Shown: piece by piece, positions 12,095 to 60,910 of the stretch
Numbering within the stretch: the first letter of the stretch is position 1
Layout of the letters: every line of letters begins with the position of its first letter
Source of the DNA: Flavobacteriales bacterium
GTDB lineage: Bacteria > Bacteroidota > Bacteroidia > Flavobacteriales_F > PHOS-HE28
Length of the DNA stretch: 64,000 nt
Direction: 5' to 3'
Assembly: GCA_023382455.1 (NCBI GenBank)
Contig: JAHDVX010000006.1
Coordinates: 11,995 to 75,994, forward strand
Notes under the pieces: generated by a model
Databases searched by the model: none
Told to the model about the DNA's origin: nothing
What the model saw: the letters and a program-made list of their open reading frames with translations, nothing else
Made by a program: the position numbers and the translations under genes

Positions 12095-12104
12095 GCCCGC
12101 ACGC

Positions 12105-12125
12105 CCGGGCCTCGTGAGGGCCCGG
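12105..12125. terminator. GC-rich hairpin between convergent genes
   Basis: CCGGGCC (12105-12111) pairs perfectly with GGCCCGG (12119-12125) around a 7-base loop. It lies in the 32-base gap between the exported-protein gene and moaA, which converge, so it could act for both strands. There is no T run, so the role as a terminator is tentative. Confidence 0.45.
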
Positions 12126-12126
12126 C

Positions 12127-43636: not shown

Positions 43637-44992
43637 CTACCGGACCACAGCGACCTTGCCTGAACGGGTGCGGCCTTGGTGGTCAAGGCGAAGCAGGTAG
43701 AGGCCTGCCTTCAGGTGGGCGGTGCTTATAGCCGCGCCGGGATCGGCGACGCGGTGCTCACCGACCACCTTCCCGGCCATGTCCATCAGGCTCACGAGGG
43801 CGCCGACTGGTGCATTGATCAGCTTAACGCACATCCGATCGGCATCGGCCCGGAAGGTGAACGCATCACCGGGATGCGGCTCGTCCACGGCAGCGCTCCC
43901 TTCCGCGAACCGCATCGCCGTGCTTTTGAACGTAAAGTCCGTGGCGTCGCTGAAGACCACGTACGGGACGTTGTCCTGGTCGATGGCCAGTGAAACGAAA
44001 TCCGACCAGTTCGGGGTGAAGCTCATCGGCCCGACAAGCTCCCAGGCATCGTTCACGAAGCGTTGTACCGTGGCCTTCTGCCCGGCATGTGAATCCTTGT
44101 ACGCCACATAGGGCACATCATTGTCGTCCAAGGCCATGGTGTAGTAGTCCATGCTGGCATCCTCGTTGGTGAAGGCCACCTGCCCCACCTGCTCCCACGT
44201 GCCGTTCACATACTTCTTCATGCTCCCACCCATGTCGTTCGATCCATCCAGGTAGGCCATGTACACCGTGTGGTCGCTCCCGATGGCCAACGATGCCGTA
44301 CGTGCGTTGTAGAAAGAACTTTCCACGCCCAACAACTCCCAAGCTCCGTTCACGAAGCGCTCCACGCGGCAACCGGAGGTGCCGGCATAACCGGTGTACA
44401 CCACGCCATTGCCATCGAAGGTCATGGACACGCTACTGGCAAAATAAGGGGAGAACCCCTCTGCGCCCAGTGTGGTCCAGCTGCCATTGGCGAACCGGCG
44501 GGTGGTCACCTTGTTCTCATGCGCACCGTCCAGATAGCTGATGTAGGGCGTGCCGTCCGGGGCGATCGCCAGGCAGGTCTTCATAGCTTGGCCTTCGGAC
44601 AGACCTGCTTGGCCCACCGTCTGCCAGGATCCCCCCTGATAGGCCATCACCGTGGCCTTCTGGCCGTTGGCCATGTCCCGGTAGGCCACGTACGGTACGC
44701 CATCGGCACTGATGTCTAGACTGATATCCAACGCAGTGCCGGCGGATAATCCTTCCGTGCCCACCACCTGCCAGGCCCCATTGAAGAAGCGCCGCACAAC
44801 GGCTTTCTCCTGCAGGCCCACATCGCCATATGCCACATACGGCGTGTTGTCCGGAGCAAAGTCGATCACCGTATGGCGGGCCCAGCCACTGGAGAACTGC
44901 TGGGTCCCCACGACCTCCCATTGGGCCTGGGTGGTTGCGGTGCCGAGCAATGCGGCCAACAGGGCGGTGCAGGATCGTAGTGTCCGTGTCAT
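43637..44992 (-). CDS. Secreted beta-propeller-like repeat protein with T9SS tail
   Basis: A 451-residue exported protein. A signal peptide (ending TTQAQ) is followed by about seven repeats of 45-50 residues. Each has a W-x-x-[VL]-G strand start, an ALA/LAI strand, a D-x-x-[VG]-P-Y-[VI]-[AS]-Y motif and a strand ending in F-x-[NG]-G-[SA]-W. This pattern suggests a seven-bladed beta-propeller. The C-terminal 75 residues are a T9SS type A sorting tail with SLMDMAGKVVGEHRV and LKAGLYLLRLD. No catalytic residues are evident; binding or adhesion at the surface is an inference. Confidence 0.8.
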   Translation of the reverse strand: MTRTLRSCTALLAALLGTATTQAQWEVVGTQQFSSGWARHTVIDFAPDNTPYVAYGDVGLQEKAVVRRFFNGAWQVVGTEGLSAGTALDISLDISADGVPYVAYRDMANGQKATVMAYQGGSWQTVGQAGLSEGQAMKTCLAIAPDGTPYISYLDGAHENKVTTRRFANGSWTTLGAEGFSPYFASSVSMTFDGNGVVYTGYAGTSGCRVERFVNGAWELLGVESSFYNARTASLAIGSDHTVYMAYLDGSNDMGGSMKKYVNGTWEQVGQVAFTNEDASMDYYTMALDDNDVPYVAYKDSHAGQKATVQRFVNDAWELVGPMSFTPNWSDFVSLAIDQDNVPYVVFSDATDFTFKSTAMRFAEGSAAVDEPHPGDAFTFRADADRMCVKLINAPVGALVSLMDMAGKVVGEHRVADPGAAISTAHLKAGLYLLRLDHQGRTRSGKVAVVR

Positions 44993-45195: not shown

Positions 45196-45360
45196 TCATT
45201 CATCCTTGTGCTTCCGCTTACGGCTGTATGTTTTCTTGCTCTTTTCCACCTTCTCGCGGAACCGTCCGTCCAGCGCACCTTGCCGCTTGCGCTCCTCGCG
45301 CACGGCCGCCTGCTCGATCTTCAGCAGCTCCTTCTTGGTGATGCGCTTTTTCTTGGCCAT
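45196..45360 (-). CDS. 54-residue basic protein
   Basis: A very small lysine- and arginine-rich protein: MAKKKRITKKELL at the start, a helix with EQAAVREERKRQGALDGRF, and a basic end KTYSRKRKHKDE. About 40% of the residues are Lys or Arg, suggesting nucleic acid or ribosome binding. It has its own perfect promoter, TAGCTTTG at 45375-45382, 14 bases before the ATG, which argues that it is a real gene. The first 19 codons are about 88% identical in DNA to those of the chimeric gene at 54834-54995. I do not recognise the family. Confidence 0.7.
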   Translation of the reverse strand: MAKKKRITKKELLKIEQAAVREERKRQGALDGRFREKVEKSKKTYSRKRKHKDE

Positions 45361-45374
45361 GGCGGCACAAGATC

Positions 45375-45382
45375 CAAAGCTA
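45375..45382 (-). promoter_or_regulatory. -7 box (TAGCTTTG) of the 54-residue protein gene
   Basis: An exact TAnnTTTG match that ends 14 bases before the ATG at 45360, in the 61-base gap after the carotenoid operon. Confidence 0.6.
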
Positions 45383-45421: not shown

Positions 45422-46573
45422 TCATTCCGCCTCCAACAATGCCACCATCAAGCTCCTGAGCACCGGGTCCTTTACCCTCGCCAAGCCTGCCCGCAGCTGC
45501 CTTTCATCCTCTTCCTGGTCCGACCGGTAACCCAATATCCACGGACAATTCCTTTGTATCGACAGCCGGATGAAGCGCAGTTCAACCTCCTCCGGCAGCC
45601 CCGAGATGGCCTGGTCGATCCGATCGGTGCCACGCCGGAAGCTCTCCAGCTTGGACCTCGGCCCCTGGGCGTGCTCGGCCCACATGGCCTCAAAGGCCCC
45701 CAAGTATCCCGATGCCAGCTGATCCAATTGCTTGCCCTGAAAATGGGCCAACATGTCCTGGCATGCTTGGGGATCACGCGCAGCCTGGGCGTAATGCCCG
45801 CGCACGAGCTCCAGGTCGATGCCTTGGGCAGCCGTGCCTGATCCTGCCATCAGTACAAAGGCGGTGGCCGCCACCCCACGCCGCCCGGCCAGTGCCCGCC
45901 ATGGCGCGGCCTCGTATAGCCAGACCGTGAGCAGAAACATCAGCAAGCCGTAGAACACGTCCTCGACGGGGATGGTGGCCAGGCGCTGGCCCCAGATGGC
46001 CTTTTCGTTATACCAGACCACCGGCTGGTCGAGCCCCGTGCCGGTGAGGATGCCGTTCACCACGAAGAAGGGAAGCAGCAGCACGGCGTAGGTGATAAGG
46101 GCCAGCCCCGTGCGTTCAGGGCGTGGCCGCAACTGCACGTACAACAGGAACCCCGCAAGCAGGGCAAAGGTGGGTGCGGTATAGGGCTGGTGCCGCCAGA
46201 GCACGGCCGCGGCCACCGACGCCACGAACAAGAGGCGGGTGGCCCACATGGCCCCAGCCGCAGGCAGGCCCGGAAACCGGAGAACCTTGAAGCAGTGGTA
46301 GGTGAACAGGCAGGCGTAGGGGATGCAGATGAAGAAGAGCCACTCTTCCACGGGCAGGCCGAGCAGCTGCACGCCGGTGAGGTGTTGCGCATTGAAGCCC
46401 CAAACGCCGCGTGCCGTGGCCCAAATGTCCCATGGAACGAAGAGCAGCATCATGCCGGCGATGGCCGGTAAGGCGCGTCCCCATTCCCGGTGGAAGCGCA
46501 GCTTCGGATGGAAGCTGTAGATCAAGGGGATGCTGATCGCGCCCAGGTCCACCCAGAGGTAGGTCCACATCAC
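45422..46573 (-). CDS. crtY: Lycopene cyclase (CrtYcd type) fused to an extra C-terminal domain
   Basis: Residues 1-230 form the membrane lycopene beta-cyclase of the heterodimer-derived type: two three-helix halves, each with the signature PVEEWLFFICIPY (74-86) and PVEDVFYGLLMF (202-213). The enzyme closes the ends of lycopene to give beta-carotene. Residues 251-383 are an unrelated, soluble, helical domain of unknown function. It contains LASGYLGAFEAMWAEHA and VELRFIRLSIQRNCPWILGY, which resembles a separately encoded Bacteroidota family as far as I recognise. At the junction, residues 231-250 (RRGVAATAF...TAAQ) look like a signal peptide now buried in the fusion. The start overlaps the crtZ stop (ATGA). 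Confidence 0.85.
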   Translation of the reverse strand: MMWTYLWVDLGAISIPLIYSFHPKLRFHREWGRALPAIAGMMLLFVPWDIWATARGVWGFNAQHLTGVQLLGLPVEEWLFFICIPYACLFTYHCFKVLRFPGLPAAGAMWATRLLFVASVAAAVLWRHQPYTAPTFALLAGFLLYVQLRPRPERTGLALITYAVLLLPFFVVNGILTGTGLDQPVVWYNEKAIWGQRLATIPVEDVFYGLLMFLLTVWLYEAAPWRALAGRRGVAATAFVLMAGSGTAAQGIDLELVRGHYAQAARDPQACQDMLAHFQGKQLDQLASGYLGAFEAMWAEHAQGPRSKLESFRRGTDRIDQAISGLPEEVELRFIRLSIQRNCPWILGYRSDQEEDERQLRAGLARVKDPVLRSLMVALLEAE

Positions 46574-47058
46574 CGCTTGTCGTTGCTACCGTACTTCATT
46601 CGCCAAGCCTCGCGGAAAAAGCGCATCGGCACGATGAGCATGCCGAAGCACTCACCGTGCTCCTTGCCCAAGTGCTTGTGGTGCATCTTGTGTGCGCGCC
46701 GAAGCGCGAGGAAGTACACCGAATTCGTGTTTCGGAGCCATTTGATGCGTTGGTGGATGAATACCTCATGCACCAGGAAATAGGCGATACCATAAAGCAG
46801 GATGCCCAGGCCGATCCATGTCCAAGGAGCAGCGGGGCCACGCAAGGCACCGAGCAGGAAGAGCAGCATGGACGGCACGGCGAACAATAGGAAGAAGGCG
46901 TCGTTGCGCTCCAGCACGTGGTCATGGTCGCGTTGGTGGTGATCGCGGTGCAGCACCCACAGAAAGCCATGCATGACAAAGCGGTGCATGGCCCAAGCCA
47001 CTCCTTCCATGGCCAGGAAGGTGGCCAACACGATACCGATGTTCAACCAAGGTTGCAT
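46570..47058 (-). CDS. crtZ: Beta-carotene hydroxylase CrtZ
   Basis: A 162-residue di-iron membrane hydroxylase that converts beta-carotene to zeaxanthin. The histidine clusters of this fatty-acid-hydroxylase-like family are present: HRFVMH near residue 25, HRDHH (37-41), HEVFIH near 97 and HKMHH near 123. Four hydrophobic segments anchor it in the inner membrane. It overlaps the SRPBCC gene by 16 bases and the cyclase gene by 4, so its translation is probably coupled to both. Confidence 0.94.
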   Translation of the reverse strand: MQPWLNIGIVLATFLAMEGVAWAMHRFVMHGFLWVLHRDHHQRDHDHVLERNDAFFLLFAVPSMLLFLLGALRGPAAPWTWIGLGILLYGIAYFLVHEVFIHQRIKWLRNTNSVYFLALRRAHKMHHKHLGKEHGECFGMLIVPMRFFREAWRMKYGSNDKR

Positions 47059-47570
47059 GGTACGGGGAATAGTGCCTGCAACGTACGCTGGCGGTGATCG
47101 AAGATCTGTTCGAGACGGCGGCGCACCACTAGGCGGTGTACCAGCTCCCCCAGCACACCGAATGGCATTTGGTACTCCACCTCATCGCAAACCACCGTAC
47201 CGCCGGGCACCTCCTCGAAACTGTGCCTGTGTCGCCAAAGCTTGTAGGGGCCTTTCAATTGCTCGTCCGTGAAGGTGCGGGCGGCCTCCACGCGGGTGAT
47301 GCCGGTGAGCCAAGTGAGCGGCAGGCCCAGCAAGGGCCGCACCGTGTAGGTGATGCGCTGCCCTTCCTGTATGCCCCCCGGAGGGTGCATGTGCCGGATG
47401 CGGAAGCCCATGTAGGACGGGGTGATCCTTGCCAAGTTGACCGCCGAACTGAAGAACGCCCATGCCTCCTGCCGCGGAATGGGCAGGAATTGCCGCCGTC
47501 GGATGCGGTGGCAAGCGGAGGATTCCCGCCGGCGTGGAAGGGCCACTGCGGAGGTGTTCAGGTTTTCCAT
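47043..47570 (-). CDS. SRPBCC (START-like) lipid-binding protein
   Basis: A 175-residue protein of the SRPBCC/polyketide-cyclase fold. Recognisable features are RRRQFLPIPRQEAWAFFSSAVNL at the start of the fold, ITPSYMGFRI, then ITRVEAARTFTDEQLKGPYKLWRHRHSFE and the C-terminal amphipathic helix with RRRLEQIFDHR. Such proteins have a deep hydrophobic cavity; related members often sit in carotenoid clusters, where they may carry or protect intermediates. The start at 47570 lies within the photolyase gene (13-base overlap). The role in carotenoid synthesis is inferred from context. Confidence 0.82.
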   Translation of the reverse strand: MENLNTSAVALPRRRESSACHRIRRRQFLPIPRQEAWAFFSSAVNLARITPSYMGFRIRHMHPPGGIQEGQRITYTVRPLLGLPLTWLTGITRVEAARTFTDEQLKGPYKLWRHRHSFEEVPGGTVVCDEVEYQMPFGVLGELVHRLVVRRRLEQIFDHRQRTLQALFPVPCNLG

Positions 47571-48874
47571 TCCATCAATGTGCTTTTGTAGTGTTCCACC
47601 GCACGGTTCACCGCCATGGCATGGTCCACAATGGGGGCGGGATATGCGGTCGTGCCGAACTCGGGTATCCACCGTTCCACGTACCCCCGTCCATGATCGA
47701 AGCGTTCCAGCTGCCGTGCGGGGTTGAACACGCGGAACCACGGGGCCGCATCGCATCCGCTTCCGCTCACCCATTGCCAGTTCCCGTTGTTGCTGCTGAG
47801 CTCAAAGTCCAACAGCTTTTCCGCGAACCAAGCCTCGCCCCAGCGGGGATCGATCAGCAGATGCTTCACCAGGAAACTGGCCGTGACCATGCGCGCCCTG
47901 TTGTGCATGAAGCCTGTGGCAGCGAGCTCCCGCATGCCGGCATCCACAAAGGGGAAACCGGTCATGCCCTGGCACCAGGCCCTGAAGTGTGCGGGATTGT
48001 TGTGCCAGATCATCCGCTCATAGGCCGGCTTGAAGGGTCGGTCGGCCACGTGCGGATGGTGCCACATCAACTGCATGAAGAACTCTCGCCAAGCGAGTTC
48101 ATTCAGGAATACCTCGCCGTGGCCCAAGGCCCGCCTGGCCTGTGCGCGCACGCTCACCGTGCCGAAGCGCAGGTGAACGCCCAGGCGGGAGGTGCCCGCC
48201 ACGCCCGGCAGATCGCGCGTGGCACCGTAACCGGCGATCAGTTCGTCGGCCACGTGCGGATCAGGCACCACCAGGTCCGTTGCTTGGAAACCGATGTCCG
48301 TGATGGACGGCATGGGCAGCGGTGCAACCTTGTGCAAGTGGTGCAGTTGCTCCCCTGAGGGATACTCCCGCAGCACGGCATCGTTGAGCATGGAGCGCCA
48401 TTTGCGCCCGTATGGCGTGAACACGGAATAGGGCGTGCCGTCCGCCTTTAGCACTTCGTCCCGCTCGAAGATGCTGATGTCCTTGTAGCTGTGCCAAGCC
48501 ACCCCGCGTGCCTCAAGCCATTGCTGCACCGCAGCATCGCGACGCAGGGAATAGGGCTCATGGTCATGCACCACCGTTACCGCCCCCACATTGAACCTTT
48601 GCAGGACACGTGGCCATACTTCCTCGGGCGTGCCGTGCTCAACCAGCAGCGTGCCGCCGGCCTGTTCCAATTCCCGCTTCAACCGCACAAGGGTCCGGTG
48701 GATGAAGTCCACCCGGCGATCAGCACGATCTTCCAAGCGCTCCAGTATGGCCGTGTCGAAGATGAACAGGGGCAGCACTTCGCCGTGGTCCTTCAGCGCA
48801 CGATACAGCGCGTGGTTGTCCACCAGCCGCAGGTCGCGCCGGAACCAGTGGATATTGACGAACGGCTTTTCCAT
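47558..48874 (-). CDS. phrB: Cryptochrome/photolyase-family DNA repair protein
   Basis: A 438-residue flavoprotein that splits cyclobutane pyrimidine dimers using blue light. The N-terminal antenna domain begins NIHWFRRDLRLVDNHAL. The helical FAD domain has the family signatures ELAWREFFMQLMWHHPHV, FPFVDAGMRELAATGFMHNRARMVTASFLVKHLL, and FELSSNNGNWQWVSGSGCDAAPWFRVFNP. The asparagine in the last motif is the one that makes N5 of FAD reducible in repair enzymes. The ATG at 48874 overlaps the idi stop (ATGA). Its place inside the carotenoid operon ties repair to pigment production. Confidence 0.93.
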   Translation of the reverse strand: MEKPFVNIHWFRRDLRLVDNHALYRALKDHGEVLPLFIFDTAILERLEDRADRRVDFIHRTLVRLKRELEQAGGTLLVEHGTPEEVWPRVLQRFNVGAVTVVHDHEPYSLRRDAAVQQWLEARGVAWHSYKDISIFERDEVLKADGTPYSVFTPYGRKWRSMLNDAVLREYPSGEQLHHLHKVAPLPMPSITDIGFQATDLVVPDPHVADELIAGYGATRDLPGVAGTSRLGVHLRFGTVSVRAQARRALGHGEVFLNELAWREFFMQLMWHHPHVADRPFKPAYERMIWHNNPAHFRAWCQGMTGFPFVDAGMRELAATGFMHNRARMVTASFLVKHLLIDPRWGEAWFAEKLLDFELSSNNGNWQWVSGSGCDAAPWFRVFNPARQLERFDHGRGYVERWIPEFGTTAYPAPIVDHAMAVNRAVEHYKSTLMEWKT

Positions 48875-49419
48875 CAGGTACAGGACAAGGCAAGGTGGCG
48901 CTGCAGCCGGGGCCAAGCGATCAACAGCCATGGCGTGAAGCGCTCCGGGGTTTCATTCATCTCCCGTTCCAGTTCGCCGGGTGTGACCCAGCGCAGGTCC
49001 GCCACCTCCTCGGCAGCCGGGTGGAAGGGACCTTGGCAGGCACCGGTGAACACATGGTCCACCTCATGTTCAATCAGCCCCTGGCCCACCTCGGCACGGT
49101 AGATGAAATGGAAGCGCCGCTCCAGGGGCGCATGCACGCCCAACTCCTCGTACAACCGGCGGTGGGCCGCATCTTCCAAGGCCTCTCCGGGCCTTACATG
49201 GCTGCAGCATGCGTTGCTCCAAAGGCCCGGCGTATGGTATTTCCCCCAGGCCCGTTGCTGCAGCAGCACCCGGCCTTGATCATCGAACAGGAACACGCTG
49301 AAGGCGCGGTGGAGGACGCCCTTGTGATGCGCCTCCAACTTGTCCATGGTCCCCACGGGTTGGTCATCGGTGTCCACCAGGACCACCAGCTCCGTGCCAT
49401 CATGCAGGGCTTTGCTCAT
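48874..49419 (-). CDS. idi: Isopentenyl-diphosphate delta-isomerase, type I
   Basis: Interconverts IPP and DMAPP, the precursors for the phytoene pathway. The 181-residue Nudix-fold enzyme has SNACCSHVRPGE with the active-site cysteine and metal histidine, RRLYEELG from the Nudix box, HFIYRAEVGQGLIEHEVDHVF with the catalytic glutamate, and a final EEVADLRWV. The ATG at 49419 overlaps the crtB stop (ATGA); a TTG two codons upstream is less likely. Confidence 0.95.
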   Translation of the reverse strand: MSKALHDGTELVVLVDTDDQPVGTMDKLEAHHKGVLHRAFSVFLFDDQGRVLLQQRAWGKYHTPGLWSNACCSHVRPGEALEDAAHRRLYEELGVHAPLERRFHFIYRAEVGQGLIEHEVDHVFTGACQGPFHPAAEEVADLRWVTPGELEREMNETPERFTPWLLIAWPRLQRHLALSCT

Positions 49420-50258
49420 ATCCAACCGATGTGGTGTTTGATGCAGCAGGTGGCCAGCAGGCCCATCTTCCGCGGGTTGCCCAACCTGATGCGCTCCTGC
49501 ATCACACGCGCCGCCGACAGGCCTTGGATGCGCTGGAACAGGGTGCGATAATAGACGTAGCTGATGTACACCCCCAGCCTTGCGCCCGTCGGGAGTTCGC
49601 GGATGCCTGCCAAGGCCGCCTCAAAATCAGCCTCGAGGTCCCGCTCCACTTCACGCTTCATTTGTTCATCGAAACGCCCGGCCTTCACTTGGGGGAAGTA
49701 GTTGCGCCCCAATGCGCCGAGGTCGTCGCGGATGTCGCGCAGGAAGTTCACCTTCTGGAAGGCGGCCCCTAAGCGCACTGCGGCGGGCTTCAAACGCTGA
49801 TAGGCCGCTTCATCCCCTTCGCAGAATACGCGCAGGCACATCAGCCCCACCACCTCGGCCGACCCCATGATATAGCGGTTGAACGACGCCGGGTCGTGCT
49901 CCTTGCAGTCCAGATCCATGGCCATGCTTTCCAGGAACGGCTCGATCAGCTCCGGCCCGATGCCGTAAGTATTGGCACAGGCTTGGAAGCTGTGCAGCAC
50001 GGGGTTCATGCTGATGCCATCGCGGATGGCGCCGTAGGCATCCTCGCGGAAACGCGCCAACAGGCGGGCCTTGTCCTTGCCATGGAAGGTGTCCACGATC
50101 TCGTCCGCGAACCGCACGAAGCCATAGATGGCCTTGATGGGTGGGCGCAGCCGAGGGGCCAAGGCGCGCACCCCGATGGAAAAGGACGTGCTGTAGCGGC
50201 GCACAACGGCGCTGCTCGCCTCGGCGCATACATGATCGTAAAGGGCCATGGTGTTCAT
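49416..50258 (-). CDS. crtB: Phytoene synthase CrtB
   Basis: Condenses two geranylgeranyl diphosphates to phytoene, the first carotenoid step. The 280-residue squalene/phytoene synthase family protein has STSFSIGVRAL, the first Asp-rich motif FVRFADEIVDT and the second motif NFLRDIRDDLGALGRNYFP. It shares 4 bases with both the preceding crtI and the following idi. Confidence 0.95.
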   Translation of the reverse strand: MNTMALYDHVCAEASSAVVRRYSTSFSIGVRALAPRLRPPIKAIYGFVRFADEIVDTFHGKDKARLLARFREDAYGAIRDGISMNPVLHSFQACANTYGIGPELIEPFLESMAMDLDCKEHDPASFNRYIMGSAEVVGLMCLRVFCEGDEAAYQRLKPAAVRLGAAFQKVNFLRDIRDDLGALGRNYFPQVKAGRFDEQMKREVERDLEADFEAALAGIRELPTGARLGVYISYVYYRTLFQRIQGLSAARVMQERIRLGNPRKMGLLATCCIKHHIGWI

Positions 50259-51742
50259 CGGCGGTGCAATTCCTTGATGATGAGGTCAGCGGCCACTTGG
50301 CCACTGATCAGGGCCGGCGGAAGCCCGGGGCCCGGCACGCTGAGCTGGCCGGCGAAATAGAGTCCTTTGACCTTGCGGCTTTTGATGGCTGGGCGGAACG
50401 GCCCTGTTTGGGCCAGCGTGCTGGCCAGTCCATAGGCATTCCCGCGGAAGGCGTGATGATCCTCCTCCAGGTCGCGCACGCAGTAACTACGCTTCACCTT
50501 CAGGTGCGCCCGGATGTCCATGCCCAAATGCCGTTGGATGCGGTCGGCAATGGTGGTGAAGCAAGCCTCACGCAGCGCATCGGTATCCTCCGAGCCGCTG
50601 GCGATGGGCACCAGCACCACCAGGTTTTCTCCACCGGTAGGGGCGGTGGAGGGGTCGGTAACACTGGTGCAGCTGACATAAAAGAGCGGTTTGCGCGGCC
50701 ACCGCCGGTGGGTGTAGATGTCCTTGCCATGCGCATCCAGGTCCTCATCGAAGAAGAGCATGTGGTGCTGGGCGCCCGGCAGGCGTGTATCCAGGCCGAT
50801 GTAGAACAGCAAGGTGCTCGGCGCCATGGTGCGCTTCTCCCAGAACGCTTGGCTGTAGGTGCGGCAAGGGGCCTCCAGCAATTGCTGCTCCACGTGGTGG
50901 TAATCCGCTGTGGCCAGCACGGCATCCGCATGGTGCACGCCGCTTGCCGTTTCCACGCCCACGGCGCGCCCATGTTCCACCACCACGCGCCGCACCGGAT
51001 CGCCCAGTCGCAAACGCGCGCCTTGCTCCTCGGCCAGTTGGCGCATGCCCTGCATCACGCGGCCCATGCCGCCCATGGGATACCACGTGCCGAGATCGAT
51101 GTCGGCGTGGTTCATCAAGCTGTAAAGTGCAGGGGTATGCTGGGGCATGGCCCCCAGGAAGAGCACGGGGAACTCCATCACGCCACGAATGCGGGCACTG
51201 CGGAAGTTGCGTCGCACGTGCCGCCGTAATGAGGAAAGGACCGAGGTGCGCAACAAGCCCTTGAGCACGCCCGGCTCCATGTACTCAGCCCAGGAGAGCG
51301 AAGGCTTGTACACCATATGCTGCATGCCGATCCTGTACTTCATCGCCGCCTCGTCCAGAAAGCCGTCCAGGCGCTTCGCCGCACCGGGCTCCTCCTGCTC
51401 GAAGAGCCGCTTCACCGCTGTGCGACCGGCGGGCATCCGCCATTGGTCGTTGGGGCCGAAAACCACCGCGTAGGAAGGGTCCAGTCGCCGCAGTTCATAG
51501 TAGCGGGCACTGGTATGCCCGAACCGACCGAAGAACCGCTCGAACACATCGGGCATCCAGTAAAAGCTGGGACCCATGTCGAAATGGAAGCCGTCCTGTG
51601 CCCAAGTGCGTGCGCGCCCGCCCACTTCTGTATGCCGCTCATGCACAGTGGTGCGTACCCCTGCGCGGGCGAGGACGGCGGCCGCTGCCAGGCCCGAGAT
51701 GCCCGCGCCGATGATGGAGACCGAAGAAGGGGGGTGAGTCAT
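50255..51742 (-). CDS. crtI: Phytoene desaturase CrtI
   Basis: An FAD-dependent desaturase that converts phytoene to lycopene in four steps. The 495-residue protein has the N-terminal dinucleotide-binding motif IIGAGISGLAAAAVLARAG. HERHTEVGGRARTW follows, and the C-terminal carotenoid-binding motif is GLYFAGQLSVPGPGLPPALISG. It is the first gene of the operon and is preceded by a full promoter with both -33 and -7 elements. It is divergent from the DUF4397 gene. Confidence 0.95.
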   Translation of the reverse strand: MTHPPSSVSIIGAGISGLAAAAVLARAGVRTTVHERHTEVGGRARTWAQDGFHFDMGPSFYWMPDVFERFFGRFGHTSARYYELRRLDPSYAVVFGPNDQWRMPAGRTAVKRLFEQEEPGAAKRLDGFLDEAAMKYRIGMQHMVYKPSLSWAEYMEPGVLKGLLRTSVLSSLRRHVRRNFRSARIRGVMEFPVLFLGAMPQHTPALYSLMNHADIDLGTWYPMGGMGRVMQGMRQLAEEQGARLRLGDPVRRVVVEHGRAVGVETASGVHHADAVLATADYHHVEQQLLEAPCRTYSQAFWEKRTMAPSTLLFYIGLDTRLPGAQHHMLFFDEDLDAHGKDIYTHRRWPRKPLFYVSCTSVTDPSTAPTGGENLVVLVPIASGSEDTDALREACFTTIADRIQRHLGMDIRAHLKVKRSYCVRDLEEDHHAFRGNAYGLASTLAQTGPFRPAIKSRKVKGLYFAGQLSVPGPGLPPALISGQVAADLIIKELHRR

Positions 51743-51944: not shown

Positions 51945-51980
51945 TTTGTTGAACATTCATGGATTTTGATTGTACGTTTG
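51945..51980 (+). promoter_or_regulatory. Promoter of the DUF4397 gene
   Basis: TACGTTTG (51973-51980) is an exact -7 box 22 bases before the ATG at 52003. TTTGTTG (51945-51951) gives a -33 TTG 21 bases upstream. The surrounding 260-base divergent region is AT-rich compared with its flanks. Confidence 0.65.
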
Positions 51981-52002
51981 CCACATCCAAATCACTCACA
52001 CC

Positions 52003-53730
52003 ATGAAACTCAGTTCCTCCCTTCTGTTGGCAGCCGTGGCCTGCCTCCCCTTGGGCGCGTGGGCCGGCGGCGGCCCGCTTGCCCGCGTGCAGATCGTCCA
52101 CAATTGCGCGGACCTCGCGGCCGCCTCGGTGGACGTTTACGTGAACGGCAGCCTGCTGCTGGACAACTTCGCCTTCCGTACGGCCACCCCCTTTGTGGAG
52201 GTGCCTGCGGAAACTGCCTTGGAAGTGGCCATAGCCCCGAGCACCAGCACCAGCGCCGGCGATGCCATCTTCACCCAAAGCCTCGTGCTTGCCGATGGTG
52301 CCAGCTACTTGGTGGTGGCCTCCGGCATAGTAAGCCCCTCGGGCTATTCACCGGCCACCCTGTTCAGCTTGGCCATTTATGACATGGCCCGGGGCTCATC
52401 GGCAGGAGCCTCCACCACCGATGTGGTCGCCTTCCACGGCGCAACGGATGCCCCCACCGTGGACATTTACGAGAGCGGCGTATTGGACGCCACGGCGGTG
52501 AACGACCTGTCCTACGGTGAATTTGCCGGATATCTCGAACTGCCCACCGCCGACTATACGCTCCAGGTGCGTGATGCCGCCAACAGCACCATCGTGGCGG
52601 CGTACGCGGCCCCCTTGGCCACCTTGGGCCTGGGCGGCGCAGCCCTCACGGTGCTGGCCAGCGGCTTCCTCGACCCGGCCGCCAACAGCAATGGCCCCGC
52701 CTTTGGCCTCTATGTGGCGCTGCCCTCCGGCGGTCCCTTGGTACCGCTGCCCGCAGTGGCCATCCCCACCGCGCGCCTGCAAGTGGTGCACAATTGCGCC
52801 GACCTGGCCGCCGCCACCGTGGACGTATGGCTGAACAATACCCTGCTGCTTGATGACTTTGCCTTCCGTACCGCCAGCCCCTTCGTCGATGCACAGGCTG
52901 GCGTGCCCTTCGTGGTCAGCATCGCCGCACCCAACAGCACCGATACCACCAATGCCATCGCCCAATACGTGTTCACCTTGGAGGAAGGAGGCAGCTACCA
53001 GGTGGTGGCCAATGGCATTGTGAGCGCCACCGGCTACACGCCGGAGCAGCCCTTTGACCTGTACGTGGCCGCCGATGCCCGCGAGGCGGCCACCGTCCCC
53101 ACGCAGACCGATATCCTGGTGTTCCATGGCGCCACCGATGCACCCACCGTGGACGTGGGTGAGACCGCCCTGCTGGGCGGCGCCACCGTGGTGGACGACC
53201 TGTCCTATGGTGAGTTCGCCGGATACCTGGAGGTGCCTGCCGCCGATTACACACTGGAACTGCGCACGGCGGACGGTACGCCCCTGCTGAGCTACGCTGC
53301 GCCATTGGCCACCTTGGGCCTGGAGGGGGCGGCGATCACCGTGTTCGCCAGCGGATTCCTCCAGCCGGCGAACAACAGCAATGGGCCTGCCTTCGGGCTG
53401 TGGGCCTCCTTGCCTTCCGGCGGCCCGCTGGTGCCCCTGGACAACACCACCGCCGTGCAAGGAACGCAACCGGTGGCCGATCGCATCACCCTGTACCCCA
53501 ACCCGGCCTCCCAGCAGGCCCAGCTCCTGATGCTCGGCGCCCACGGCCCACAGGTGGACCTGCAAGTGACGGACATGGCAGGGCGTGTGGTGCTGGACCT
53601 TGGCCGGCACGCCACCGGCACTGAAACGCTGGTGCAGCTGGACGTTTCACCCTTGGCGCCCGGCAGTTACCGCTTGGTGCTCAATGCGGCGGAAGGTGCA
53701 GCTTCACTTCCTTTGCAGATCATCCGCTAA
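52003..53730 (+). CDS. DUF4397 cell-surface protein with internal duplication and T9SS tail
   Basis: A 575-residue exported protein. The signal peptide ends near GAWAG. Residues about 25-245 and 255-475 are two long repeats. Each begins ARVQIVHNCADLAAA or ARLQVVHNCADLAAA and contains two DUF4397 units with the motifs VAFHGATDAPTVD / LVFHGATDAPTVD and DLSYGEFAGYLE. The final 80 residues are a T9SS type A domain: ITLYPNPASQQ, VTDMAGRVV, LAPGSYRLVL. DUF4397 proteins are secreted or wall-anchored and of unclear function. It has its own promoter, divergent from crtI, and precedes the MerR gene. Confidence 0.87.
   Translation: MKLSSSLLLAAVACLPLGAWAGGGPLARVQIVHNCADLAAASVDVYVNGSLLLDNFAFRTATPFVEVPAETALEVAIAPSTSTSAGDAIFTQSLVLADGASYLVVASGIVSPSGYSPATLFSLAIYDMARGSSAGASTTDVVAFHGATDAPTVDIYESGVLDATAVNDLSYGEFAGYLELPTADYTLQVRDAANSTIVAAYAAPLATLGLGGAALTVLASGFLDPAANSNGPAFGLYVALPSGGPLVPLPAVAIPTARLQVVHNCADLAAATVDVWLNNTLLLDDFAFRTASPFVDAQAGVPFVVSIAAPNSTDTTNAIAQYVFTLEEGGSYQVVANGIVSATGYTPEQPFDLYVAADAREAATVPTQTDILVFHGATDAPTVDVGETALLGGATVVDDLSYGEFAGYLEVPAADYTLELRTADGTPLLSYAAPLATLGLEGAAITVFASGFLQPANNSNGPAFGLWASLPSGGPLVPLDNTTAVQGTQPVADRITLYPNPASQQAQLLMLGAHGPQVDLQVTDMAGRVVLDLGRHATGTETLVQLDVSPLAPGSYRLVLNAAEGAASLPLQIIR
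52081..53430 (+). repeat. Tandem duplication within the DUF4397 gene
   Basis: Two copies of about 660-690 bases, beginning near 52081 and 52770, encode the two halves of the DUF4397 protein. Long segments are almost unchanged; for example both encode VHNCADLAAA, GATDAPTVD and FASGF/LASGF followed by SNGPAFGL. Exact limits are approximate. Confidence 0.8.
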
Positions 53731-53744
53731 ACACCGGCGACCGA

Positions 53745-53780
53745 AGGGGAAGGAGCGGTGGCCGCACCGCTCCTTCCCTT
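53745..53780 (+). terminator. Strong hairpin after the DUF4397 gene
   Basis: GGGAAGGAGCGGTG (53747-53760) pairs perfectly with CACCGCTCCTTCCC (53765-53778) around a 4-base loop, and two further weak pairs extend it. It lies between the DUF4397 stop and the MerR start, 12 bases before the latter. It ends the first transcript or limits readthrough into the regulator gene. Confidence 0.75.
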
Positions 53781-53792
53781 CTTGCCGACCTT

Positions 53793-54719
53793 ATGGACCG
53801 AATGGCCGCAGCCCCTTCCTATTTCAGCGACCGTTTCAGCATCAAGGACCTGGAGCTGTTCTCCGGGATCAAGGCCCATACCATCCGGGCCTGGGAACGG
53901 CGGTACGCCCTGCTCGAGCCTGCACGGAGCAAAACCAACATCCGCTCCTACAGCACCGAGGACCTGCGCACATTGCTGAACGTATCGCTCTTGATGAAGG
54001 AGGGAATGTCCATCTCGCAAGTGGCGGCACTTTCCTCGGCCAAGCGCGAGGAAAAGATCAGGACCATGGCAGGTGCCGGGCACGGCAAGGACCAGGCCCT
54101 GAATGAACTGAAAATGGCCACGGTGACCTACGATGAGGAACGCTTTGAGGCCACCTCGCGCAATTACCGTGTGGACCATGGCTTCGAGGCGCTGGTGGAA
54201 AATCTCTACCTGCCGCTGCTGACCATGCTCGGGCTGCTGTGGCAATCCGCCACCATTAGCCCGGCACAGGAGCACTTTGCCAGCAATTTGGTCAGGCAGA
54301 AATTGATCAGCGCCATTGATAGCCTGCCCTTGGGCAGAAACCACGACGGGCCCACGGTGGTGCTTTATCTACCGGAGAATGAGATCCACGAGCTGGGCCT
54401 GCTCTACCTGCACTACCGCCTTCGGCGAGAAGGCTGGCGAACGCTCTACCTGGGGGAAAGCGTGCCCATGGCCGACCTGGTGGGCGTGGCCCGCGAATGG
54501 CCCGGGCCCTTGGCCATTTGCGCCATCCTCACGGTGCATCCCCGTCCACCCGAGGTACTCCCTTACCTGGAGGACCTGGCGCAGAGGCTTCCAGATGTAC
54601 AGTTCCACTTTTGCGGCCCCGCACTCCAGCCCGTGGAAGGCCGGTCACTGCCGGAGTGCATCCATGTGCATCCCGATATAGCTGCGCTCGTCTCGGCACT
54701 CCACCCCTCATCCCAATAA
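53793..54719 (+). CDS. MerR-family regulator with cobalamin-binding light-sensor domain (CarH/LitR-like)
   Basis: A 308-residue transcription factor. Residues about 15-85 are a MerR winged helix with FSIKDLELFSGIKAHTIRAWERRY. Residues about 100-180 are the helical cap of the cobalamin-binding region, with W150 and E160-H161 spaced as W-x9-E-H. Residues about 186-300 are the Rossmann-like cobalamin domain with E197-x-H199-x-x-G202, which supplies the lower histidine ligand in CarH. In CarH, adenosylcobalamin makes a DNA-bound tetramer in the dark and light breaks it, releasing carotenoid genes. All key residues are present, so the same mechanism is likely here, with the crtI operon as target. 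Function is inferred from the family. Confidence 0.85.
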   Translation: MDRMAAAPSYFSDRFSIKDLELFSGIKAHTIRAWERRYALLEPARSKTNIRSYSTEDLRTLLNVSLLMKEGMSISQVAALSSAKREEKIRTMAGAGHGKDQALNELKMATVTYDEERFEATSRNYRVDHGFEALVENLYLPLLTMLGLLWQSATISPAQEHFASNLVRQKLISAIDSLPLGRNHDGPTVVLYLPENEIHELGLLYLHYRLRREGWRTLYLGESVPMADLVGVAREWPGPLAICAILTVHPRPPEVLPYLEDLAQRLPDVQFHFCGPALQPVEGRSLPECIHVHPDIAALVSALHPSSQ

Positions 54720-54833
54720 CGCCGAAGGCAGGCTTTGCAACCGGGCGAAGTTGAATGTCCGGATGGTACTACTACCATTTGGAGGATGACCCCGGGTGGC
54801 TACTGGATGGAGGCACCGAGGCAATAAGCCCTG

Positions 54834-54995
54834 TTATTGTGCGCTGCGCACCACCCGCATCATTTGCCCACCGTGTGGCGTTTTGGCCACCAAGTGGTAA
54901 ACACCGGGCTGGTCCGGCAGCACGCAGGGCCAACCGTCGGCCGCCCGCCCCAGCTTCAGCAGCTCCTTCCTGGTGGTGCGCTTCTTCTTGGCCAT
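54834..54995 (-). CDS. 53-residue chimeric gene: basic-protein N-terminus joined to a T9SS-type tail
   Basis: The frame starts MAKKKRTTRKELLKL. Its first 19 codons match the 54-residue basic protein gene (45196-45360) at about 50 of 57 bases. From codon 20 it becomes GWPCVLPDQPGVYHLVAKTP and ends RVVRSAQ. This matches the last 35 residues of the cytochrome at 58828-60774 in about 21 positions (GWRCILP, PGVFHLV, TPHG, RVVR). It thus joins a cytoplasmic start to a secretion-signal remnant, with no signal peptide. No good promoter is seen upstream. It may be a recombination scar rather than a working gene. The rest of 54720-55070 holds nothing I can identify. Confidence 0.6.
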   Translation of the reverse strand: MAKKKRTTRKELLKLGRAADGWPCVLPDQPGVYHLVAKTPHGGQMMRVVRSAQ

Positions 54996-55070
54996 GGGGA
55001 CGGAACTTTTCAACCGCCGGATAATCGCGGCCAGATGGCGATAGCTTGCAGGTCCTTAAGCCCTCCCGCC

Positions 55071-56057
55071 ATGCGCAAACTACTGAAGTTCATCGTGATA
55101 CTGGTGGTCGTGATCGTCGTGGTGGCCATGGGCAGCGTGGCCTATATCACCCAAGCCATGCCCCACGTCCCGGTCCCTGCCGACCTGCACGTGGAGCCCA
55201 CGTCCGCACGTGTGGTCCGGGGCGAATACCTGGCCAACCATGTTACCGTTTGCATGGACTGCCACAGCACCCGCGATTGGAACAAATTCTCCGGGCCCGT
55301 GCAGCCCGGGACCCTGGGCAAGGGAGGTGAGGTGTTCGATCGGAGCATGAACTTCCCGGGCCGGTTCGTGAGCAAGAACATCACGCCGTTCAACCTCAGG
55401 AAGTGGAGCGATGGGGAGATCTTCCGCGCCATCACGAGCGGCGTGAGCCGAGATGGGCACCCTTTCTTCCCGGTGATGCCTTATCCGTACTACAACAAGC
55501 TCTCCACCGAGGACGTGTACAGCATCATCGCCTACCTGCGCACGCTGCCCGAGATCCCCAGCCAGCCCGAGGCGTCCCAGGCGGACTTTCCCATGAACGT
55601 GATCATGCACACGATCCCCGAGCCCGCGCATCCCATGTCGCTGCCGAAGCCCACCGATGCCGATTATGGTGCGTATTTGGTGAACGCCGCCGGATGCCGC
55701 GAATGCCACACGAAAATGGAGAACGGCAAGGCCGTGGGTGAACCCTTCGCCGGTGGTTTCGAGTTCCACTTCCCCGGCGGGTCCGTGCTGCGCTCCGCGA
55801 ACATCACGCCCGATCAGTCCACCGGCATCGGCGCCTGGGACCGCGACACCTTCATCCGAAAGTTCCGCCAGTTCGCGGACAGCAGCTACGTGCCCACCGC
55901 GGTGGACTGGAAGGCCGGCGACATGCAAACGGTGATGCCCTGGACTATGTATGGCGGCATGAGCGAGCAGGACCTTGGCGCAATCTATGACTACCTGCAC
56001 GCCCTGAAGCCCGTGGTGAACAGGGTGGAATACTGGCAGCCTGTGGCCACGAAGTGA
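55071..56057 (+). CDS. Membrane-anchored diheme cytochrome c
   Basis: A 328-residue electron-transfer protein with an N-terminal hydrophobic anchor (KFIVILVVVIVVVAMG) and two cytochrome c domains, each with one haem motif: CMDCH near residue 64 and CRECH near residue 205. Probable axial methionines follow each motif, for example in VMPYPYY and VMPWTMY. The layout resembles diheme cytochromes linked to dehydrogenases or alternative oxidases. TAGCTTGC at 55042-55049, a variant -7 box, lies 21 bases before the ATG at 55071. A long upstream open frame from 54837 is not coding-like. Confidence 0.88.
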   Translation: MRKLLKFIVILVVVIVVVAMGSVAYITQAMPHVPVPADLHVEPTSARVVRGEYLANHVTVCMDCHSTRDWNKFSGPVQPGTLGKGGEVFDRSMNFPGRFVSKNITPFNLRKWSDGEIFRAITSGVSRDGHPFFPVMPYPYYNKLSTEDVYSIIAYLRTLPEIPSQPEASQADFPMNVIMHTIPEPAHPMSLPKPTDADYGAYLVNAAGCRECHTKMENGKAVGEPFAGGFEFHFPGGSVLRSANITPDQSTGIGAWDRDTFIRKFRQFADSSYVPTAVDWKAGDMQTVMPWTMYGGMSEQDLGAIYDYLHALKPVVNRVEYWQPVATK

Positions 56058-56061
56058 CCGC

Positions 56062-56847
56062 TCAGGCCGCCCGCAGCGCCATGGCCGCCTCCCGCATGGC
56101 CAGCGCCCGCGCCTTGCCGAGGTAGCGCTCCACGCCCGCGTGCACCAGGTAAACCAGCGGCGTGGCCAGCAGCGCCACCAGGAATTTGTAGCAATAGGCG
56201 GTGATCACCATGGCCGTGCATTGCGCGAAGGGCATGCCCTTGAGGATCCAGAAGGCCACGTAGGTCACCACCACGCTGTCGATCAACTGGCTGATGAGGG
56301 TGCTGCCCGTGGCGCGCAGCCAGATGCGTTTGTCGCCCGTGATGCGCTTGAAGCCCCGGAAGGTGCGGGCATCCACCAATTGCCCGATGATGAAGGCGGT
56401 GAGCGAGCCGATGATGATGTTGTTGCCCTGCCCAAAGATGCTCTTGAACGCCGCCTGCATGTCGGGCACGCCCTGCTTCATGCTGCTGGTGATCCACCAG
56501 CCCTGATCGGGCGGCATGCGGATGGCGAGCCACATCATTACGTACATGAAGGCGATCAACGCCGCCGTGATCATGGTGAGGAAGCGCACGCCGCGCACAC
56601 CGAAGTAATCGTTGATCACATCGGTCATGATGAAGATGATGGGCCAAGGCAGCACGCCCACGCTGAGCACGAACGAGAGGTGATGTTGACCGAGCAGCGT
56701 AAAGTCCGCCTTTTCCAGGCCCAGGGCGGTCTCCAGTTGGAAGAGCTTCACGCCGATCATTTCCGCCACGATGGCGCTGGCCGTGAAGAAGGCACCGAGG
56801 ATGATGTACAGTCGGGTAGCCTTGTTGCCGAGGATCTCGTGGATCAT
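56062..56847 (-). CDS. Queuosine precursor transporter, YhhQ family
   Basis: A 261-residue membrane protein of the YhhQ (DUF165) family, which imports queuosine precursors such as preQ0/preQ1 for tRNA modification. Typical features are PIIFIMTDVINDYFG near residue 70, an ALIAFMYVMMWLA helix, and in the second half SLTAFIIGQLVDARTF followed by GSTLISQLIDSVVVTYVAF. About six hydrophobic helices are seen. It converges with the diheme cytochrome gene, 4 bases apart. Confidence 0.9.
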   Translation of the reverse strand: MIHEILGNKATRLYIILGAFFTASAIVAEMIGVKLFQLETALGLEKADFTLLGQHHLSFVLSVGVLPWPIIFIMTDVINDYFGVRGVRFLTMITAALIAFMYVMMWLAIRMPPDQGWWITSSMKQGVPDMQAAFKSIFGQGNNIIIGSLTAFIIGQLVDARTFRGFKRITGDKRIWLRATGSTLISQLIDSVVVTYVAFWILKGMPFAQCTAMVITAYCYKFLVALLATPLVYLVHAGVERYLGKARALAMREAAMALRAA

Positions 56848-56980
56848 GATGCCGGGGTGCCGGAAAAGTACGCGGTAGGGCCGGGTTGTCCGTGGTGGTT
56901 GTCCCTTGTCTTAAGTCTCATGCGCGTGCCGGCATAAGACATGGGCCGCCACGCCCACTCCTGATCCACCTGCAGGTGTT

Positions 56981-57810: not shown

Positions 57811-58434
57811 TCAAGATACCCGCTTGGCTTGGTCGCGCAGATAGGTTTTCACGCGGTCAAATGCCACTTGCTGCCCTGGGGCAACCAGAATGGGCTCCGG
57901 CACCAGGTCATCAAAGAAAACCAACGATTTCAAGATCAGTGTGCGATCCAATCGGGGCAGCTTATGGCTGCATGATTCCAAGAGCTTGTCCAGCGGAATC
58001 CGTTGCAGGATGAAGTAGAGGTCCACGTAGTCCTTCATGGCCGCACGCCCCGTGATGGCGGACAACTTCATGCATCCGATGTCGGCCACATCGGCCAACT
58101 TCAAGGGTGGCGCCTCCACCAACGGCTGAAGCAATGGGTATGGATAGGCCATGAAGCTGACCTTGATCGCTTCGTTCACCAATACGGTCAGCGTATCCCG
58201 CTCATCCTGGGTTTTCACCACTTGCTGCGGTGCGAAAGCCGCCTCGAGCAACCCGAGGATCTCGTTCGTGTCGAATGGATCCTGCCTGAAGAAGTCGAAA
58301 TCCAGGCTGTCCCGATGACCGAATTGCAGGGCCAATGCAGTTCCACCCGCCAGGTAGAAGTGCTTTTCTTGCGCAAACCGCAACCGTGGCAGGGCCGCTT
58401 GCCGCTCGCTATCCAGCACGGACCAATGGATCAT
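57811..58434 (-). CDS. AbiEii-type nucleotidyltransferase (toxin-like)
   Basis: A 207-residue protein of the AbiEii/DUF1814 nucleotidyltransferase family. The core motif FYLAGGTALALQFGHRDSLDFDFF (about residues 26-49) has the Gly-Gly-Thr and the two catalytic aspartates (LDFDF). A later KLSAITGRAAMKDYVDLYFI segment carries the third, conserved region. Such proteins modify tRNA or other targets and act as toxins in AbiE-like modules. The start overlaps the stop of the small upstream gene by 4 bases (ATGA), the usual arrangement of a toxin after its antitoxin. Confidence 0.87.
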   Translation of the reverse strand: MIHWSVLDSERQAALPRLRFAQEKHFYLAGGTALALQFGHRDSLDFDFFRQDPFDTNEILGLLEAAFAPQQVVKTQDERDTLTVLVNEAIKVSFMAYPYPLLQPLVEAPPLKLADVADIGCMKLSAITGRAAMKDYVDLYFILQRIPLDKLLESCSHKLPRLDRTLILKSLVFFDDLVPEPILVAPGQQVAFDRVKTYLRDQAKRVS

Positions 58435-58703
58435 GCGAACCGCGCTGTGACCTTGGGTTCCACCCCGAACACCAGCGCCCAATAGTTCAATGACTTCCGG
58501 TTCCATTCACCCGGCCTTGGATGCTCCACCTGGGCAGCGATCTCATGCCGGGAATAGGTCGCGAACAGCCAAGCCACCGCATCATGTGTGCCGAGGTTCA
58601 GCACGTTGGTGATGATGTGCGCCTTATGGGCCCGCAGATCGAGCTTATCTACATCATACGACCACAGGACCGCCTTCACCGATGCGGGGAATCTAGTGTT
58701 CAT
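58431..58703 (-). CDS. Small protein paired with the AbiEii-type gene (putative antitoxin)
   Basis: A 90-residue protein with FPASVKAVLWSYDVDKLDL near the start, then a helical ITNVLNLGTHDAVAWLFATYSRHEI. This layout recalls the small DUF6922-type partner proteins found next to AbiEii-like toxins, but assignment is tentative. It overlaps the toxin-like gene by 4 bases. TAACTTTC (58711-58718), one base from the -7 consensus, ends 7 bases before the ATG. The pair could be a defence or stability module. Confidence 0.72.
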   Translation of the reverse strand: MNTRFPASVKAVLWSYDVDKLDLRAHKAHIITNVLNLGTHDAVAWLFATYSRHEIAAQVEHPRPGEWNRKSLNYWALVFGVEPKVTARFA

Positions 58704-58710
58704 CCGTCCC

Positions 58711-58718
58711 GAAAGTTA
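58711..58718 (-). promoter_or_regulatory. -7-like box (TAACTTTC) of the toxin-antitoxin-like pair
   Basis: Seven of eight positions match TAnnTTTG on the minus strand. It ends 7 bases before the ATG at 58703, again leaving almost no leader. Confidence 0.45.
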
Positions 58719-58827: not shown

Positions 58828-60774
58828 TCATTCCCCGGTCCGCACCACACGCGCCAACTGTTCCCCGTGCGGAGTGCCCACCACCAAGTGGAACACACCC
58901 GGTGTTTCCGGCAGGATGCAGCGCCATCCTGCGGCATTCCGCTGCGTCACCAACGGCACCTGCTTGCCCGCCGCATCATAGGCCTTGATCCATTTTGCAT
59001 CCGGCGATGACACGTGCACCACGCCGTCCCGTGTGGGGTTGGGGAAGGTGCGCACCAAGGCACTGGCCTCCATGGTCACACCGGTGCTCAAGAAAACCGT
59101 GGAATCCGCCACCACCAGCTCCGGTGAGTTGTCTGCGGCAAGGAACATGTCCCGGAACGGGTCGATGCGCGCGCCGTGGAAGCTGAACATCTCGTCGTTC
59201 CAACGCGGCGGCACCTGCTGGAACCACACGCGGGCCTTCACCTCCACCGCGCCTGCATACCCGCCCAACGGGATGTGGTAGTGCACGATGTCGCCGCCGT
59301 TGCCCTCCACCCCACCGGTATCGTGGTTGAAGTCCGGGTCAGCGAGCGCGAGCCCCGCTACGGCGGAGGTGTCCTGGCTTGGGTGCGAGAGGCTGTAGCC
59401 CACGGGTACCAAGCGATTGTCCTTCAGCCGATGTACGGCGCGCAGCAACGTGGTGGTGACGTTGGAGTCCACATCACCCATGACGAACTCGTAGATCTGC
59501 GCCTGGTCTTCCTGCGTGATCACATCGTGGTGCGGCTCGTACGGCAGACCGTTGCCGATCACCTCGTAGGTGCTGTTCCAGCTGCCGCTGTTGAAGATCG
59601 TATCGCCCGTGGCGCCAATGGCCAGCAGCTGCACAAAGGCCCGCCGGTTGGGAAATCCGCCCGGGAACTTGTGGCCGGTGAGGTTGGTGAGGGCCACCTC
59701 CACGAACAAGGTGTCGTCCGTTCGGTCCACGGCCTGCAACGCCATGGTCATGGAGGTCTTCCGCAAGGCGATGCTGCGTGCGATGGTGCTGTCGAACTGC
59801 ACCGGCGTGGCCGGAATGCCGAAGTCCGCGATGTGGTCCTTCATCATCTTCAGCATGAACACGCCTCCGCCCGTGAGGTGATGCTTGCCGAACGGCGACT
59901 GGCCCGGCAGGAAGATGTACTCCGAGGCCAACACCACGGAATCCTGGATCCGCGGCATGTGGCAGCTGCGGCAGTTCTGCTCCGTTCCGTAGTACACCGA
60001 GTTCTCGTACTCCTGCCACAGCGTCTGCTCGTAGAATGAGGTGCCCGTGGGAACGCCCTGCAGGTCCACCGGTTGGTTGATGGCCGTATGGCATCCGGCG
60101 CACACGCTGCCGTCCAGTATGTTGGAGCCCTGGTCCGGCGTGTAGTTCACGAAGTACTGCATGATCGCCGGGTTGATCTGCTCATCGGTGTAAGGGCCCC
60201 AAACGCGCGCACTGTCAAACACCAGATCACCGGAAAACACATGTCCGCCCGATGCCGGGTTCTGCATGTGGCAAGCCAGGCAGGACACGCCGTCCTGTGC
60301 CAGCACACTGGTGTCCAGATGTGCTGCGGTGAAGGCGGTAGCGCCCTTCATCTGCTGCTCGAAAACGGCCAAGGGGGCGTGGCATTTCAGGCAGCTGTGC
60401 TCAATCGTCTCCTTGATCGCCGGGTTCACCAGTCCTTCATGTTCCATCTTGGCCAGGAAGAAGGGGTCTCGTGCGCTGTTGGCCATCATGGTGCTGCGCC
60501 AATCGTCCACCACGTTCACGCTGATTCCCTCGCCCGCCACCATGGCGATGCCCAGGGAATCATAGCCGTGGCAGCCCGCGCAGCGGCCTGCGGTGACGAA
60601 GTAGGTGCCGAACTGGACCGGCAGGCCCTGGATCTGTTCCCGCAGGAAGGCCAGCTCGATCGGACTGTGCGGGCCTTTCACCGGCGTGGTGGCGGCACTC
60701 CAGCCCACCAGCACGAACACCACCAGGAGCAGACCCACCACCACACGGAGCTTCGCCGGCAACAAACGCTTCAT
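58828..60774 (-). CDS. Five-haem exported cytochrome with T9SS-like C-terminal tail
   Basis: A 648-residue protein with an N-terminal hydrophobic signal (RVVVGLLLVVFVLVGWSAAT) and five haem motifs: CAGCH, CLKCH, CLACH, CAGCH and CRSCH. Histidine-rich segments between them (for example SPFGKHHLTGGG) are possible axial ligands. Residues about 330-560 are beta-rich with an unusual VALTNLTGHKFPGGFPNRR segment, as seen in cytochrome c554-like multihaem proteins. The final 80 residues have RTFPNPTRDG, KAYDAAGKQV and PGVFHLVVGTPHG, a T9SS type A sorting domain. Export across the outer membrane would place haems outside the cell. TAACTTGC at 60788-60795 is a variant -7 box. Confidence 0.85.
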   Translation of the reverse strand: MKRLLPAKLRVVVGLLLVVFVLVGWSAATTPVKGPHSPIELAFLREQIQGLPVQFGTYFVTAGRCAGCHGYDSLGIAMVAGEGISVNVVDDWRSTMMANSARDPFFLAKMEHEGLVNPAIKETIEHSCLKCHAPLAVFEQQMKGATAFTAAHLDTSVLAQDGVSCLACHMQNPASGGHVFSGDLVFDSARVWGPYTDEQINPAIMQYFVNYTPDQGSNILDGSVCAGCHTAINQPVDLQGVPTGTSFYEQTLWQEYENSVYYGTEQNCRSCHMPRIQDSVVLASEYIFLPGQSPFGKHHLTGGGVFMLKMMKDHIADFGIPATPVQFDSTIARSIALRKTSMTMALQAVDRTDDTLFVEVALTNLTGHKFPGGFPNRRAFVQLLAIGATGDTIFNSGSWNSTYEVIGNGLPYEPHHDVITQEDQAQIYEFVMGDVDSNVTTTLLRAVHRLKDNRLVPVGYSLSHPSQDTSAVAGLALADPDFNHDTGGVEGNGGDIVHYHIPLGGYAGAVEVKARVWFQQVPPRWNDEMFSFHGARIDPFRDMFLAADNSPELVVADSTVFLSTGVTMEASALVRTFPNPTRDGVVHVSSPDAKWIKAYDAAGKQVPLVTQRNAAGWRCILPETPGVFHLVVGTPHGEQLARVVRTGE

Positions 60775-60910
60775 GGCCATCGGGTGGGCAAGTTATACGC
60801 GGCCGCCGTGAAAATGTGCGGTAAATCATAGATCACGGGCAGCCACCGTAAGCCGTTGCAATCCACGGGCCGGCCAGCGCAACCTCAACCGGGTGACCGG
60901 TGATCGCCGT

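Follow-up and report, generated by a model that had tools for sequence, protein, structure and literature searches.

The question raised by this locus is how an open reading frame of 53 codons (54834..54995, minus strand) can begin like one gene and end like another, and whether such a frame works as a gene at all. It lies in the 64,000-nucleotide stretch of Flavobacteriales DNA analyzed here, hereafter the window. The original prediction, made from the sequence alone, had left the choice between a recombination scar and a new micro-gene capturing a secretion tail behind a cytoplasmic start. We hold, with fair but not full confidence, that the frame was formed at the left end of an insertion of about 9.6 kb, which split a small basic-protein gene, and is not a working new gene.

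A frame with two recognizable halves

Read from 54995 to 54834, the frame translates as MAKKKRTTRKELLKLGRAADGWPCVLPDQPGVYHLVAKTPHGGQMMRVVRSAQ and a stop codon. Its head, the first 19 codons (54939..54995, minus strand), matches the start of the basic small-protein gene read from 45360 to 45196 (MAKKKRITKKELLKIEQAAV...) in 50 of 57 nucleotides, and blastn places 54938-54997 against 45303-45362 with E = 1e-14. Its tail, the last 34 codons (54834..54941, minus strand), corresponds to the 3' end of a multihaem cytochrome gene of the type that ends in a type IX secretion system (T9SS) tail. The closest match in this genome is the extreme C terminus of the five-haem cytochrome, at 21 of 35 residues; the nucleotides agree at 70.5% over 95 nt (blastn E = 2e-5), and the protein-level search of the same genome gave E = 7e-12. 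That search returned no other match comparable to these two. The head and tail matches overlap only at GCCG (54938..54941, minus strand), a 4-bp microhomology common to both halves; consequently, the junction falls between codons 19 and 20, and the frame is kept. The anatomy proposed in the original prediction, from the two resemblances to the in-frame junction, is thus upheld by nucleotide alignment of each half.

Chance similarity is excluded for either half by these E values. An assembly artefact is also unlikely, as a misjoin of the two genes of this genome could not produce halves that differ by 12% and 29% from their counterparts. Nor is the tail the intact end of an unrelated upstream gene: the frame upstream of it is the basic-gene head, before which the ancestral spacer lies.

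The same junction, sought in relatives, was recovered from its own genome only. Across 45 genomes of the genus, one per species, the sole full-length match to the frame was the frame itself, and it was absent from the other 44. An order-level search gave back the same 45 genomes only. The chimera was found neither in PLSDB plasmids nor in a protein scan of one-genome-per-species contigs.

The locus is split relative to the nearest relative

In relatives with enough contig, the gene order runs from a MORN-repeat gene through the cytochrome, a MOSC-domain gene, a gene of the type at 55994 and a divergent cytochrome c gene to the basic gene. Here, the chimera holds the place of the basic gene beside the divergent cytochrome c gene (55071..56057, plus strand; Cytochrom_C), the conserved left neighbor by synteny, while the intact basic gene (45196..45360, minus strand), which has orthologues in most genomes of the genus, lies 9.6 kb off, behind a block of other genes.

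The comparison with G017, the nearest relative, whose genes at this locus are the most alike, makes the split explicit. The spacer between the cytochrome c gene and the chimera (54996..55070) finds its counterpart in the spacer that precedes the basic gene of G017, and none of 1000 shuffles aligned as well. Behind the intact basic gene, the 3' flank aligns with that of this very G017 gene, and again none of 1000 shuffles did as well. In the crosswise comparisons, by contrast, 726 and 527 of 1000 shuffles equalled the real sequence, and the region upstream of the intact basic gene does not align to the spacer. A single locus of G017 is therefore divided over two sites in this genome, one on each side of the block. 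In addition, a second gene (43637-44992) stands between the intact basic gene and the neighbor that adjoins it on the right in G017, so more than one event has affected this locus.

The block is composed of two gene groups. On the minus strand (45422..51742) lie genes for a CrtI-like protein, phytoene synthase, a NUDIX protein, photolyase, a hydroxylase and lycopene cyclase, forming a carotenoid/photolyase group assigned by Pfam. On the plus strand (51970..54719), convergent with the chimera, are a DUF4397 protein with a T9SS tail and a MerR/B12-binding regulator, likewise assigned by Pfam. In the relatives compared, no block gene stands at this locus, except for a MerR gene that adjoins the basic gene in G022, where the intact basic gene is also convergent to it. 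At the thresholds used, neither MerR nor the cyclase had a match in G017. The GC content of the block is not unusual, and no known RNA or tRNA was found as an integration site.

Within the block, a tandem direct repeat of 670 bp, at 67% identity, lies in the DUF4397/T9SS gene (window 52081-53439). The lycopene cyclase frame (45422-46573, 383 aa) is longer than most of its matches in relatives, these extending over roughly its first 225 residues, and a second cyclase match exists elsewhere in the same genome (G000:C22).

Unequal divergence of the two halves

The two halves differ strongly in their synonymous divergence from the matching genes of this genome. For the head against the intact basic gene, dS was 0.12 and dN 0.14 (dN/dS 1.15), and for the tail against the cytochrome, dS was 1.02 and dN 0.30 (dN/dS 0.29). 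The contrast in dS gave Fisher p values of about 0.02 to 0.04 on rounded counts; both halves are short and all substitution counts small, so that the rates are rough. The dN/dS of the tail falls inside the range between functional cytochromes (0.11 to 0.46). The intact basic gene has a dN/dS of 0 to 0.23 against G012, G028, G005 and G003 and of 0.39 against G017; the head, with its ratio near 1, appears to have lost constraint.

The cytochrome itself (58828..60780, minus strand) carries five CXXCH motifs, as originally described, although a further ATG at 60780 lies upstream of the start first given at 60774. The claim that this gene is the parent of the tail is not supported. In addition to the dS of about 1, the tail is closer to the G019 cytochrome (23 of 33 residues) than to the one in its own genome. 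At 14 diagnostic sites, where the cytochromes of this genome and of G017 share a base that differs from most others, the tail sides with the others at 7 and with the own/G017 pair at 3. Because of the dS contrast and the diagnostic sites, the tail would seem to have diverged mostly within a functional cytochrome elsewhere and to have been joined to the head later. The five-haem cytochrome of the window would then be a relative of the source of the tail, which belonged to a diverged lineage.

The sequence directly behind the stop codon of the chimera (54787..54819, minus strand) resembles the start of the MOSC-domain gene that in most relatives comes next after the cytochrome stop codon, and is a probable relic of it. 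With collinear placement held near the stop, a limit fixed after the alignments had been seen, 1 of 1000 shuffles reached the profile score; in a second test with this limit relaxed, 1 to 4 of 400 shuffles (about 0.3 to 1%) and 2 of 798 genomic control stretches did so. When the chimera 3' flank was aligned locally to one relative at a time without such a restriction, most results lacked significance (best p of about 0.02, for G019). In this genome and in G017, a DUF6922/AbiEii pair stands between the cytochrome and the MOSC gene; therefore, the MOSC-like flank of the chimera points to another or older source. Being weakly significant, the relic may be taken as supportive, not decisive, for the source of the tail. 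The pair itself, which is toxin-antitoxin-like (window 57814-58715), occurs in this genome and in G017 but not in the other relatives compared.

An insertion seam as the probable origin

The most economical reading of these observations is a single insertion, and the position and neighbors of the chimera, which are those of the intact basic gene in relatives, count in its favor. A 9.6-kb block would have entered the small basic-protein gene, bringing a cytochrome 3' end, the MOSC scrap, the MerR regulator, the DUF4397 protein, the carotenoid/photolyase operon and a basic-gene head. The incoming cytochrome 3' end would have become attached, on the left and at GCCG, to codons 1 to 19 of the resident gene. 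At the right end, the basic gene would have been restored intact, as expected from homologous exchange within it. The open chimeric frame would be an accident, since both partners shared the frame and ended in a stop codon.

An event of this form, with one insert end joined in a shared gene and the other at a few matching bases, resembles homology-facilitated illegitimate recombination, a process reported from experiments with naturally competent species and with Escherichia coli conjugation (for example PMC3240628); here, we infer it from a single genome. Of its features, this locus shows the GCCG at the seam, which may be due to chance; the right-end basic gene, intact and with an orthologous 3' flank, may mark an end joined through long homology. 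As for a possible foreign origin of the incoming DNA, G017 lacks the MerR and cyclase matches, the tail does not come from the cytochrome of this genome, and the block is ordinary in GC. A single step with one homologous and one illegitimate end would account for the locus, and the donor may have been another species of the genus. The arrangement expected of a donor (a cytochrome 3' end by MerR, a basic-gene head behind lycopene cyclase) occurred in no genome compared. The insertion reading is further tempered by the weak significance of the MOSC relic, by the second gene at 43637-44992 and the additional event that it implies, by 4-bp microhomologies being common by chance, by the small substitution counts and by the ambiguous ancestry of the head. 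The scar that the original prediction had considered is located exactly at the edge of an insertion splitting the basic gene, as seen against G017; it is ordinary in kind but unusually well documented.

A less likely origin is an old tandem duplication of the segment that starts in the cytochrome 3' end and stops in the basic-gene head. The chimera would be its novel joint (basic 5' followed by cytochrome 3'), with the duplicated genes in the middle later lost and the carotenoid block in their place. In most relatives, the cytochrome and the basic gene do share a strand, with the cytochrome upstream, so that a duplication would yield exactly such a joint plus a second, intact basic gene downstream, and the MOSC scrap behind the stop codon fits as well. 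However, this requires at least two events, more steps than an insertion, and nothing left of duplicated MOSC, 55994-56917 or cytochrome c genes was found in the window. Moreover, no copy of the spacer precedes the intact basic gene, and the strong difference in synonymous divergence between the halves also speaks against it.

Read in this way, the locus illustrates, base by base, how inserting an operon-sized piece of DNA can create a chimeric open frame at one border and re-form the interrupted gene at the other. Frames of this kind may be taken for new genes. Comparing synonymous divergence between the two halves is a simple safeguard, since unequal values set a seam with old or foreign DNA apart from a fusion within one genome.

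Coding potential of the frame

A new micro-gene, in which the frame is expressed as a basic peptide with a T9SS signal end and acts, for example, as a cytoplasmic decoy or regulator, is improbable. The frame is open, and its tail preserves the last residues of the T9SS type A sorting domain (TIGR04183 / PF18962), with the conserved final motif (PGVYHLV...RVVR, cf. PxGxYVV, in the last ~22 residues). In Porphyromonas gingivalis fusions, the last 22 residues of the domain, which are present here, were enough for T9SS-dependent secretion (review PMC5445135). Nevertheless, the chimera has 34 of the ~70 to 75 residues of the domain, about half, without its PNPT part, and matched neither the Pfam nor the NCBIfam model; in most P. 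gingivalis cargoes, the sorting domain measures 67 to 88 residues (PMC11285876). The chimera also contains no signal peptide-like segment, its N terminus being basic and its peak 11-residue hydropathy 0.25, against 3.5 in the cytochrome. T9SS cargo first requires Sec export; hence, a tail on its own would be without effect in the cytoplasm.

The frame shares its first 19 residues with the small basic GALDGRFR family of this uncultured Flavobacteriales genus, for which no Pfam model matched above its cut-off. Yet the frame lacks the GALDGRFRxKV core, whose GALDGRFR is present in nearly all aligned basic-gene orthologues, and the basic C terminus of the family. The chimera is also missing the upstream CTTTG box found in the intact basic gene (TAGCTTTG, 22 nt upstream of the ATG) and in about half of the orthologues. 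This box, which resembles the Bacteroidota -7 promoter element, occurs in many basic-gene orthologues some 9 to 24 nt ahead of the start codon, for example at window 45361-45382 and in L033, L034, L037 and L039. Together with the dN/dS near 1 in the head and the occurrence in a single genome, these absences tell against the captured secretion tail of the original prediction. Most likely, judging from such sequence features, the chimera makes no useful protein, and the frame would be a non-functional scar at the insertion edge. Hardly credible is the more specific version, a strain-specific expressed micro-protein in which a basic cytoplasmic head and a T9SS signal end interfere with or regulate secretion.

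A direct fusion of the own cytochrome tail to the own basic-gene head, the parents first named, has in its favor that both genes lie in the window and are the best matches within this genome, but is highly improbable given the tail dS of about 1 against 0.12 for the head, the 7-to-3 division of diagnostic sites for other species and the closer G019 tail (23/33 against 21/35).

Possible recurrent exchange at the basic gene in this clade

The chimera head is closer to the intact gene of this genome and to that of G012 than to that of G017. Between this genome and G017, the basic genes agree in 39 of 54 nucleotides up to about codon 18 and in 102 of 108 beyond, so that their change-point, near codon 18, is close to the chimera junction, and the basic-gene head of G017 itself looks recombined. 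In G017 (L061:11093-12346), a second copy of the 3' part of the basic gene lies 1.1 kb downstream. Judging by this partial copy and the change-point, the basic gene seems to undergo exchange readily in the clade. A fusion at our locus driven by REP elements and a transposase, as in G017, was considered and rejected, as the GCAGGGTCTCC and GGAGACCCTGC repeat cores were not found in the window. In G017, the two copies are separated by a transposase-like ORF (11488-12132, minus strand) with flanking GCAGGGTCTCC/GGAGACCCTGC palindromic repeats.
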